A stretch of DNA of 64,000 bases from Cognatiyoonia koreensis (GTDB lineage Bacteria > Pseudomonadota > Alphaproteobacteria > Rhodobacterales > Rhodobacteraceae), in NCBI RefSeq assembly GCF_900109295.1, contig NZ_FOIZ01000001.1:558001-622000 (forward strand), given 5' to 3'. A model generated the notes under the pieces. That model was not told the DNA's origin. It made no database searches and saw only the letters and a list, made by a program, of their open reading frames with translations. Of the stretch, positions 153 to 64,000 are shown piece by piece. A program made the position numbers and the translations under genes. The number at the start of each line of letters is the position of its first letter. Position 1 is the first letter of the stretch.

Positions 153-1162
153 GCCCGCAACCGCCTGACGCGCGGGTTCATGACCTTGAACCAGCGCGAC
201 GGAAAAAGCGCGAGCGTCGCCATCGTCGGCAAGGAGCGTGGCAGCATTGGTCCGTCCACCGGCAGGTCGAGTGCGGGGTATTCCCGCGACGGATGTGCGT
301 GATGATCAGAATGGCGCGGCGCGTTCAGCATCAGTGCGGATGAGAACCAGTGCGGGCTGTTCCAGCTATGTTTCGCGCCGACCGGTTCCGGCTTGCCGTT
401 TTCGTCAATCTTGCGCGTCAGACCGTAGTGCTGCACGTAGTCGGACAGCATCAGTTGCGACTGGGCATATCCGGCCAACAGCACATAAATCGCCGCCCCC
501 TTCAGCCCGCCAATCACTGCCGCGATGGCGATCATCAAAACCGCACCGCCGATATAATGCGCATAAGGGTGCGTCCAAAGCGGCTGGCCCTTGCGACGTG
601 CGTTTTCGGCCTTCAGCCCGGCCTTGAACGACCCGATCCATGCGCGTGGCAGATAAGCGTAGTACGTTTCGCCCAGACGCGATGTGTTCGGGTCCATGTC
701 TGTGGCGACAAAGCGGTGATGTACCAGCGGATGCGCCGAGGTGTGATGCCCGAACAAAAGCGAGATATAGACCCATTTGCCAAGCTGGTGCAGATGCCGT
801 GCGCCGCGATGGATCAGTTCATGCGCGTTGGAATTGCCGACTTGCCCGAAATACATGCCTGCGGCGAGGAACAACGCGATCTTTGCGACCGTCGACAGCG
901 TGTCACCGGCCAACCCGAATACGATCAACCCCAAAAGCGGGAAATGCAGCACGGCCAGAACGACAGACAGGCCGTTGGCTGCTGGAAACTCGCTTTCGGG
1001 CACTGGGGGTGTCACGATCTTGATCAGCGTGTCGAGCGTGAATGTCAGACCCGTCAGATAGACAAGCGCAAGCGCTGTGCACCAGCCACCCGACACCGCC
1101 CCGAGTGCGAGCAAGGGCACGGGCAGCAGTGTCGCCAGGCTGAACAGGATCATCGATCTCAT
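149..1162 (-). CDS. alkB: Alkane 1-monooxygenase (AlkB)-like membrane di-iron oxygenase
   Basis: Integral-membrane fatty-acid-desaturase-fold protein, about 337 residues, with the AlkB histidine boxes in order: NAHELIHR, a GHH..HPLVHHRFVATDMDP stretch, SDYVQHYGL and NAPRHSDHHAHP. These match the family pattern HELxHK, EHxxGHH, NYxEHYGL and LQRHSDHHA that binds the di-iron centre. The family hydroxylates medium-chain n-alkanes at the terminal carbon in the cytoplasmic membrane, using a rubredoxin donor; no rubredoxin gene is visible nearby. A longer frame starts at 1255, but its extra 31 residues are Cys/Lys/Arg-rich and unlike the family, so the ATG at 1162 is preferred. It is a little shorter than typical alkane hydroxylases, and the substrate is not proven. 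Confidence 0.85.
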   Translation of the reverse strand: MRSMILFSLATLLPVPLLALGAVSGGWCTALALVYLTGLTFTLDTLIKIVTPPVPESEFPAANGLSVVLAVLHFPLLGLIVFGLAGDTLSTVAKIALFLAAGMYFGQVGNSNAHELIHRGARHLHQLGKWVYISLLFGHHTSAHPLVHHRFVATDMDPNTSRLGETYYAYLPRAWIGSFKAGLKAENARRKGQPLWTHPYAHYIGGAVLMIAIAAVIGGLKGAAIYVLLAGYAQSQLMLSDYVQHYGLTRKIDENGKPEPVGAKHSWNSPHWFSSALMLNAPRHSDHHAHPSREYPALDLPVDGPMLPRSLPTMATLALFPSRWFKVMNPRVRRLRA

Positions 1163-60901: not shown

Positions 60902-60991
60902 GGAAGCTTGGCAGAGTGGTCGAATGCACCGGTCTTGAAAACCGACGAGGGTGAAAGTCCTCCCAGGGTTCGAATCCCTGAGCTTCCGCCA
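60902..60991 (+). tRNA. tRNA-Ser (anticodon UGA)
   Basis: The 90-base class II tRNA includes an encoded CCA. The acceptor stem is GGAAGCT/AGCTTCC. The anticodon loop CTTGAAA carries TGA, between CGGT and ACCG arms. A long variable arm is present and the T-loop is GGTTCGAATCC. Confidence 0.95.
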
Positions 60992-61412: not shown

Positions 61413-64000
61413 ATGAAATTATTCTTTGTAGACCCCGCAACCGGCGACCGCATCAACGATTTTGGGTCCGGTAGCGAACTTTCCATTCAAGCACTCGGGA
61501 CGGTATTGATTGTGCCCGACACGAAATCTTCGGTTGAGGACAGCGTCAGCCGGATCGAGTATCGCTTTAACGATCAGATTTTCACGATCACAGAAGAGCC
61601 ATTTGCCCTGACATTGGGGCCCGACGAATCTGCAGATTACAAATGGCAGACCGGACCTCTTGAAATCGAAGCGACCGCATTTGACGGCAGCGGCACAGCA
61701 GTCGACTCGACGCTTTTGAACGTCACCGTATTCCAAACACGTGTTGCTGCAGATGGCAGCGCGACGGGCGAGGGGTCTTCCGACGGGAACCTTGTGGTTG
61801 ATGGCGGTGGCACGACGACCGATGGAGATCGCCGCGAAACGCTTGGGTCGGAGTTCGAATTCGAAGCTGAAAGCGAAGCCGAAGCAGAGTCTGAGTCCGA
61901 AGCCGAGGCCGGAGCGGCAGACGGTGTTGCGACAGCGGCAGGCGCATTTGGGGCTGCAGCGGCTGCTTCGGGCTCCAACGCATTGACCTACACGCTGGCA
62001 AGCGGATCAATCGCGACAGCGGCAAACGGTGAAGCGTCTGAAAACACACCGTTCTTGCCAGAGACCGGCAACGATGAATTCGACAGCCAGCCAGGAACGA
62101 CCAATACCATCGTGCAGATCAAGACGGACTCTCCACTTGGAGAGTCTGAAGCCGAGATCGAAGCTGAAGCAGAAAGTGAAGTGGAGTCAGAGGCCGAGGC
62201 GGACATCGGGAATGGGAGTGCCGCTGCGGTGGCGGGAACGTCGATCTCACTTGCCTCGGTCGGTTCTGGTCTTGGCGGCAACGGTGATGTCTTTTTGACG
62301 GATGTCTTTGCTGCATTGGACGGTGCCAGTTCCACGTCCGTTGCGACGACCGAAAACCGCGCAGCAGACGGGCTTGTAGCCAATCAAACTGCCGCTGGGC
62401 AAACCGAAGAACGCGAAGGCATCACGCGTGTCGCGATTGCGCCGCAGGAAGGTGCTGCCGAAGCTGAGTCCGAAGTAGAAGTCGAAGCCGAGGCGGAAGC
62501 CGAAGCTGAAGCTGGTGACGGGGTGGCGGCAGCGGCTGCCAGTGGCGGTGTCGGTGCGGCGATCGTCGGTAATTATGCGATTGGTGACGCAGATACATCT
62601 GCTGGAACCGCGACAAGTGTTGGAACATACGAGTCGATTGCAGAGCTTTTAAGTGGCGTCCTGCTTGCTTCGCCCGCAGATGTTGATGATATCCGCATCG
62701 TGCGTGCAAAGGGCACGGCGACAGTCGATGACGAGGAAATCACATCGGACGTTACAGATCCGACCCCGGATACAAGTACCCCGCCATCCGATCTGGATTT
62801 TGAAAGCGAAGCAGAGGCAGAAGCTGAAGCCGAAGCAGAAGTCGAGGCGGAAGTCGGGAACAACGCTGCCGCAGTCGCTGTGATTGCGTCCGGCGGAAGT
62901 GGTGCCGCAGGTATCGGGTCTGACGCCCGCGCCGCCGCAAGCACGTCGGGTTCGGCATCAACTTACGGTCACACTGGTCAGTTCATGATCAACAATGACC
63001 TGACCCAGATACAGGGCCAGCTTTCCGATCCTGATTTTGATCGCGCCGAAGAAGTTCTGGCTGCGCGCGCGTTAGGTTCGCTTGACGAGGCAGAGGCGGA
63101 AGCTGAAGCCGAAGTTGAAAGTGAGGCAGAAGCCAGCGCGCCGGAAACGGCGCTGGGAAATAGCGTTGCGGGCGCTGCAACGACGACGGACACGACCGGC
63201 GAAAGCACATCTGAAGCGCAAGTTCAGCTGGTCTCTGGCAGCGGTCCAGATTTGCCGACCAGCGGTGTGATGGTGACAGACCGGGTTGTCGAAAACCTGT
63301 CCCCCGACTTTGAAGGCCCGACGGCCAACAGATCAGAGGATGGTCTAGAGCCAATTGAACTGGAGATCGAAGCCGAAGCGGAAGTTGAAGCCGAAGCCGA
63401 GGTTGGCGTAAACGCCGCCGCCGCGGGAGTTGCCGCCGTTGCAACCCTTGGTCATACCTATGGCAATGACACGCTTTTGGGTGCCGCATCGTCATCGGCG
63501 ACCAGCACAACCGTCTTTGATGCACCATCGGACAAGTTCTCACATGCGGCCATCAGCGCGCCAAAAGGCGACGGCGATGGCCGTGTGTTCGAAGTCGAAA
63601 CCGAAGCCGAGGCTGAAGCCGAGGTTGGCATTGGCGCGGGGGCCGCAGCAGCGGCTGCAGGTGCCGCCGGCTACGAAGGGATCAAGGCCGACTCGGCTGT
63701 CGGCGCAACAAAGAACGCCGCAGCTGCCGCAGCTGCAGCAGGGGCGCGGGTGACCACCTACGTCGTGCTACCTGAAAGCGGTTCTGCAGGCACAATCGAA
63801 GCCTACGCCGCGGCGTGGGATATTGAAGGTCGCGGTGTGGCCGCTGCGGTCGCGCTGGCTGGGACGCCGCTGAGCGATGGCAGCGAGAACGAATTCGAGA
63901 TTGAAGCTGAGGGCGACTTCTCGGTGATCCTTGATTATTCGCTCGACACATTTGCGTATGATTCAAACGCCGTGCCGACGTTCACGCTTGCGTCCGAGCC
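61413..64000 (+). CDS. Giant modular acidic repeat protein, unrecognised family (runs off the right edge)
   Basis: Translated from the ATG at 61413, the frame has no stop to the window end: at least 862 residues, no Cys. Residues 1-110 (MKLFFVDPATGDRINDFG, SVSRIEYRFNDQ, GPLEIEATAFDGSGTAVD) look like an Ig-like or beta-sandwich domain of cell-surface proteins. Then eight modules follow. Each starts with an alternating Glu tract: residues 147-167, 244-266, 350-368, 464-482, 559-574, 649-665, 727-739 and 827-834. Most tracts run into an Ala/Gly-rich hydrophobic stretch (VGIGAGAAAAAAGAAGYEG after the seventh). There is no signal peptide at the N-terminus, so type I secretion with a C-terminal signal is possible but unseen. 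I know no family with this pattern. Minus-strand Ser/Ala frames here are antisense shadows. Confidence 0.8.
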   Translation, partial: MKLFFVDPATGDRINDFGSGSELSIQALGTVLIVPDTKSSVEDSVSRIEYRFNDQIFTITEEPFALTLGPDESADYKWQTGPLEIEATAFDGSGTAVDSTLLNVTVFQTRVAADGSATGEGSSDGNLVVDGGGTTTDGDRRETLGSEFEFEAESEAEAESESEAEAGAADGVATAAGAFGAAAAASGSNALTYTLASGSIATAANGEASENTPFLPETGNDEFDSQPGTTNTIVQIKTDSPLGESEAEIEAEAESEVESEAEADIGNGSAAAVAGTSISLASVGSGLGGNGDVFLTDVFAALDGASSTSVATTENRAADGLVANQTAAGQTEEREGITRVAIAPQEGAAEAESEVEVEAEAEAEAEAGDGVAAAAASGGVGAAIVGNYAIGDADTSAGTATSVGTYESIAELLSGVLLASPADVDDIRIVRAKGTATVDDEEITSDVTDPTPDTSTPPSDLDFESEAEAEAEAEAEVEAEVGNNAAAVAVIASGGSGAAGIGSDARAAASTSGSASTYGHTGQFMINNDLTQIQGQLSDPDFDRAEEVLAARALGSLDEAEAEAEAEVESEAEASAPETALGNSVAGAATTTDTTGESTSEAQVQLVSGSGPDLPTSGVMVTDRVVENLSPDFEGPTANRSEDGLEPIELEIEAEAEVEAEAEVGVNAAAAGVAAVATLGHTYGNDTLLGAASSSATSTTVFDAPSDKFSHAAISAPKGDGDGRVFEVETEAEAEAEVGIGAGAAAAAAGAAGYEGIKADSAVGATKNAAAAAAAAGARVTTYVVLPESGSAGTIEAYAAAWDIEGRGVAAAVALAGTPLSDGSENEFEIEAEGDFSVILDYSLDTFAYDSNAVPTFTLASE

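Follow-up and report, generated by a model that had tools for sequence, protein, structure and literature searches.

The best comparison for the protein reported here is probably BapA of Paracoccus denitrificans. According to its published description (PMC5588039), BapA, which is needed for biofilm formation, a process stimulated by Ca2+, is a predicted substrate of a type I secretion system (T1SS), contains 891 Asp-Ala dipeptides in 2211 amino acids, and is encoded immediately upstream of the exporter genes bapBCD; nucleation of calcium mineral by this protein is a speculation of its authors. For an ice nucleation protein, arrays of outward-pointing Thr residues in a beta-solenoid are discussed in PMC9418140.

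In the 64,000 nucleotides of Cognatiyoonia koreensis DNA analysed here (the window), an open frame begins with an ATG at position 61413 and runs to the window end. Extending the contig to the stop codon, a check that the initial annotation had proposed, gave an intact frame of 1184 amino acids without interruption (G000:C1:619413-622967). The encoded protein, to which we refer as the nine-module protein, has a mass of 117 kDa, a pI of 4.05 and a net charge of about -183, and comprises a head (residues 1-111), a linker, a body (about 140-945), and an RTX region with a tail (about 947-1184). The initial annotation had called this protein giant, which at 117 kDa and 1184 residues is wrong, and its head free of Cys, which holds over the full length; its overall interpretation, a secreted matrix or adhesin protein of a new type, is supported in part.

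Table 1. Positions of the nine-module gene, its parts and the flanking tRNA gene in the window.
Feature	Residues	Window position	Strand	Remark
tRNA-Ser(TGA)		60902..60991	+	Invariant left boundary of the variable spot holding the nine-module gene
Nine-module protein, window part		61413..64000	+	862 of 1184 codons; continues to G000:C1:622967
Head	1-111	61413..61745	+	Ig/FN3-like domain
(E-x)n tract 1	147-166	61851..61910	+	First strand of module 1
(E-x)n tract 2	244-263	62142..62201	+	
(E-x)n tract 3	350-367	62460..62513	+	
(E-x)n tract 4	464-481	62802..62855	+	
(E-x)n tract 5	559-574	63087..63134	+	
(E-x)n tract 6	649-664	63357..63404	+	
(E-x)n tract 7	727-738	63591..63626	+	
(E-x)n tract 8	825-834	63885..63914	+	Short
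(E-x)n tract 9	897-908			Outside the window, as is the RTX tail

All eight tracts of alternating Glu that had been described in the window were found again as (E-x)5+ runs, together with a ninth past its end, at a tract-to-tract spacing of 72-114 residues. Shuffling residues 1-945 (n=10,000) produced at most one such tract per shuffle (mean 0.011, versus the nine observed). At the DNA level, a pattern of six GAR-NYN codon pairs matched the 64 kb 12 times, with overlaps (0.00 expected), each time on the + strand within 61875-63625. Codon use in the tracts is mixed (GAA 46, GAG 25; for Ala, GCC 15, GCT 11, GCA 10, GCG 5), hence nothing points to a recent duplication of DNA, which bears out the earlier claim that the pattern is not a young one. 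It had also been stated that an Ala/Gly-rich stretch follows most tracts; this is so in general, with the exception of tracts 5 and 8, where by eye a clear stretch directly downstream is absent.

As for the conformation of the tracts, a beta strand and a charged helix had both been put forward, and it is the strand that the analysis favours. In the AlphaFold2 model of the window protein, 109 of the 130 tract residues are in strand and none in helix; the tracts are predicted to be long beta strands, and most modules to consist of three strands, in the order (Glu-x)n, Ala/Gly-rich and Ser/Thr-rich, with third strands that are TSTS-rich in the family consensus. The first strands would, according to the prediction, display rows of Glu on one face. 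The two AlphaFold2 runs rested on shallow alignments (36 and 41 sequences) and reached mean pLDDT values of 65.5 and 68.3, with the other four models per run lower (52.4-60.5 and 56.2-64.4) and the linkers for the most part below 45. For the Isoptericola relative, the complete body was modelled with a pTM of 0.74. The x residues agree with the strand assignment, as those in 213 tracts of 38 relatives include 560 Val/Ile/Thr/Phe/Tyr/Trp versus 20 Leu/Met/Lys/Arg/Gln, and the x positions across all alignment columns 769 versus 104. On the strength of these strand formers, along with the lack of any helical tract residue in the model, helical tracts were rejected.

A search with residues 140-945 recovered at least 35 proteins at E<=1e-3 among 7,987 candidates scored, and an alignment search at least 37 at E<=1e-10 among 7,984, five of which were new, for a total of at least 40 distinct proteins in a set of 5.8 billion cluster representatives, plus a few genome matches; judged by sequence, this family is rare. 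Its members are found in Pseudomonadota, Bacteroidota and Actinomycetota, and include proteins of Yoonia (Rhodobacterales; P0007), Winogradskyella maritima and Aggregatimonas sangjinii (Flavobacteriia), a Saprospiraceae MAG, and Isoptericola sediminis and Ilumatobacter (Actinomycetota). In the body, two full-length relatives share 72% identity over 93-94% of its length, and a partial relative has 78% identity over 63%. The records showed few member names, namely "tandem-95 repeat protein", "T9SS type A sorting domain-containing protein" and "hypothetical protein". The profile search that had been suggested matched the tail to RTX and the body to no described domain family: residues 1-862 hit no Pfam family at E<=1, and among the proteins scanned the body had no match to any Pfam or NCBIfam model. 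A literature search, which covered few subscription papers, found neither a published description of the body nor functional data on any member, and the body appears to represent an undescribed protein family.

Against a control profile built from the bodies of 19 relatives, with the window's row left out, the native body scored 473.8 bits. When shuffling was confined to the residues outside the tracts (100 runs) the score did not exceed 46.0 bits, full shuffles (100) gave at most -78.0 bits, and the reversed body -88.1 bits; the native score being so far above these controls, what is detected is homology of the modules and not composition. An OmpA-family protein of the same genome (L008:4157-6229, - strand), which has a long EA-rich region of its own, is distinct from the body, at -42.2 bits against the body profile. 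Permuting the modules (100 runs) retained most of the score (mean 369.8, maximum 417.5 bits), so that the score is weak evidence for module order. With the near relatives set aside, the same-numbered module was the best match for 194 of 236 segments, which were cut from a collinear alignment, with only two usable segments for module 8 and module 9 left out; conservation is poor in module 5, where 9 of 33 segments match their own number best. How many acidic residues a tract contains also varies with module position, given that none of 2000 permutations reached the observed spread (module 8 left out), and in the 38 relatives the window's Glu columns hold Glu in 1638 and Asp in 115 of 2139 cases. 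With a profile match above the compositional controls and the same module order, the window's protein falls within the nine-module family.

Across that family, module order is kept but tails differ: the tail may be of RTX or T9SS type or an LPATG-type anchor, or may be missing. The T9SS sorting domain TIGR04183 occurs in 4 of the 20 rows of an RTX-free alignment (A3); one apparently T9SS-sorted member (P0036) carries tandem-95 type insertions, and another member (P0032), which also has an HYR domain, ends in LPATG, a hydrophobic stretch and Arg, which we take to be a wall-anchor signal. In a near relative (P0001) the last ~80 residues are unrelated and Arg/Gln-rich, which looks like a frame break in the metagenome record. 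In a tree of 37 of the 41 rows (those of at least 450 amino acids), where 7 of 34 inner branches are open, deep ones included, the window protein groups with its two near relatives in a clade (100/100) that is separate from the eight remaining RTX-tailed rows (94/81). An outer-membrane barrel, considered for the Tyr-x-Gly-x-Tyr-x-Phe end of tail-less members, was rejected, as T9SS members continue past the same end into further domains, and Isoptericola, an actinobacterium, has a similar end.

By fold match of its predicted model, the head has an Ig/FN3 beta-sandwich fold, in agreement with the Ig-like region annotated there, and no N-terminal signal peptide was seen in it by eye; a search with residues 1-140 returned three near relatives among 2,858 candidates. 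Beyond the window, where the initial annotation had recommended looking for a C-terminal type I secretion signal, lies an RTX region (PF00353, E 5.4e-23, 81 bits against a cut-off of 23, five stretches), and the protein contains seven GGxGxD motifs. This RTX tail is of a kind typical of type I secretion, by which the nine-module protein would be exported. The C-terminal ~230 amino acids are 37-46% identical to the tails of ORFs from four relatives, all with an HEIGHxxGLxH motif that presumably marks a zinc protease, and a tail common to protease-like ORFs points to a shared type I carrier. The Pfam scan of the whole protein found RTX and no other binding or anchor domain, and no BapA_N retention prefix was recognised with Pfam, so that the protein could simply be released. 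Protease-type RTX proteins, in known cases, often are.

The TolC/ABC genes that were to be looked for downstream are not adjacent, and no T1SS exporter adjoins the nine-module gene. The nearest set, consisting of an OEP gene, an LssB-like ABC gene (662 bits, below its cut-off of 693) and an HlyD gene above cut-off, lies at C1:636666-641399, 13.7-18.4 kb beyond the gene's end, and has its own adhesin; this cluster probably serves the Big_6 adhesin (L007) that precedes it. PrtD-type exporters (TIGR01842) scored above cut-off twice in the genome, at C2:207102 and C2:531831. The Bap-type adhesin locus itself (G000:C1 about 633.9-641.4 kb, L006 end to L007:7399) comprises a BapA_N match, five Big_6/Ca_tandemer stretches, OEP, the LssB-like ABC transporter and HlyD, and its T1SS cluster is adjoined by a gene for a 522-amino-acid protein with ankyrin and Kelch-like repeat matches (L007:7560-9128, + strand).

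In surveys that scored only two or three candidates per genome, which makes misses possible, profile A3 found the body in 1 of 394 genomes of the window's own family (its own genome, with the same result for A2), 1 of 398 of its phylum (again its own, in a sample overlapping the first), 2 of 345 of the phylum of the Saprospiraceae genome (one being that genome, with the head part only in eight), and 1 of 296 of the phylum of Isoptericola (that genome). The proposed comparison with other Rhodobacteraceae thus returned the own genome, the Yoonia member being known from the protein search. Genome contigs yielded at least two relatives among 592 stretches and viral contigs none with the body in 600, and the plasmid matches listed (20 of 488 for the window protein, 30 of 77 for P0005) were all in the RTX/tail part.

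Two other genomes of the same genus had no match to the nine-module protein. At the variable spot that holds its gene, relatives show a SPOR-type gene, the same tRNA-Ser(TGA), and then differing content (gene names by eye). In a genome of the same genus (G002) the tRNA is followed by transporter genes and then by pqiC/B/A-type, kinase and YihY-type genes, the latter three sets being found also 3' of the window's insert; an integrase-like gene follows in G008, and a recombinase-like gene a few kb on in G005 (by eye). A tblastn search with the nine-module protein found nothing at E<=1e-8 in the stretches of five relatives, out of seven matching genomes, the stretches of G001 and G008 being short. 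The GC content of the gene does not differ from its surroundings. Rarity, the variable tRNA spot and the different export tails, taken together, suggest an accessory trait, and fit an accessory gene that may move horizontally.

No conserved partner gene was seen by eye in three contexts (L039, L040, L060). Downstream neighbours of the nine-module gene encode a lipoprotein, an EamA transporter and an M10 protease. The first, a 247-amino-acid lipoprotein-like protein (L006:8980-9723, + strand; TbpB_B_D 26.7 bits, cut-off 26; a Slam-dependent lipoprotein match below threshold), starts 12 bases past the stop, close enough for co-transcription, and the last, three genes downstream (L006:11096-13321, - strand), is an RTX serralysin-like protein (Peptidase_M10_C, RTX).

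To our reading there is about an even chance that the nine-module protein is exported and, loaded with Ca2+, belongs to the cell surface or matrix, its Glu-faced strands being cross-linked through Ca2+. Type I secretion would export it via the RTX tail, which would fold in the Ca2+-containing water outside the cell; Ca2+ might then sit between Glu rows that belong to adjacent molecules, or link the protein to a polysaccharide or a charged surface, and bridges of this kind could tie cells together or to a surface, with a role in attachment or matrix. Possible, though doubtful, is a new fold in which nine three-strand modules stack with equivalent strands on one another into a layered beta structure of one chain, with Glu and Thr/Ser sheets on its two sides and Ala/Gly between them, a slab binding Ca2+ or a crystal lattice, which moves between phyla as an interchangeable surface device plugged onto RTX/T1SS, T9SS or wall-anchor tails. 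A loose, hydrated polyanionic stalk that keeps the head off the cell or holds water and ions would suit the net charge and the long, low-confidence linkers of the model; we deem it unlikely, however, because such a brush needs neither module identity and acidic counts conserved by position across phyla, nor strand formers at x, nor the pTM obtained for the Isoptericola body.

Flat sheets whose regular Glu and Thr/Ser arrays match a crystal lattice could, alternatively, bind or seed calcium mineral or ice. Such a template draws on the Glu alternation over 10-20 residues, repeated nine times, the TSTS-rich third strands, the retention of Glu over Asp, the mineral nucleation idea of the BapA authors (PMC5588039) and the Thr arrays discussed for the ice nucleation protein (PMC9418140), but no mineral or ice partner was found among the neighbour genes read by eye, and we rate it as rather improbable. 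The chances seem slim that the protein plays no structural part and is a released sponge for ions or metals, or a decoy for cations or cationic peptides: the lack of a recognised anchor or retention prefix and the sharing of its tail type with protease-like ORFs would suit this, yet P0032 looks wall-anchored and P0036 looks T9SS-sorted, with tandem-95 type domains, which suggests surface display. We give next to no credence to an artefact, that is, an untranslated or freely drifting repeat frame, since low complexity and the missing Pfam match to the body are outweighed by the identity kept in the two full-length relatives and the partial one, homology across phyla far above shuffled controls, and mixed codons in the tracts.

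Set on a known export tail, then, is an apparently undescribed protein body, as far as sequence comparison can tell, and this ordered body, present in three phyla with at least three kinds of tail, would amount to a surface device without a name in current annotation. With RTX proteins bearing an M10 (serralysin-like) protease it shares the GGxGxDxxx region and the tail identity given above, but no protease domain was found in it, and the passenger is the nine-module body. It resembles LapA/Bap-type RTX adhesins with Ca2+-linked Ig repeats in being acidic and RTX-tailed and in having an Ig-like unit, but it has only one such unit, another kind of body, and no BapA_N prefix, which is matched instead by the other adhesin (L007) of the same genome. 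Acidic alternating tracts recall aspein and other Asp-rich shell proteins of biominerals (PMC5588039), although here the residue is Glu and not Asp, the protein is bacterial, and its multi-strand modules are conserved. Like BapA, it is very acidic, with an acidic residue alternating with Ala, a predicted Ca2+ binder and a predicted T1SS substrate, and the two hosts are probably of the same order. Unlike BapA, with its long uninterrupted Asp-Ala run and its exporter next door, it has 1184 residues, nine Glu-x tracts of 10-20 residues, each in a module of its own alongside Ala/Gly and Ser/Thr strands, and no adjoining exporter; measured against the description of BapA (PMC5588039), it is not a member of that group. 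Our best reading is that the nine-module protein may work like BapA without belonging to it. Should the rows of Glu act as an ordered array in binding Ca2+, the protein would serve as a naturally occurring, gene-encoded system for testing how ions or mineral are bound by alternating acidic strands, and as a compact model of the poorly understood Asp-Ala protein BapA.
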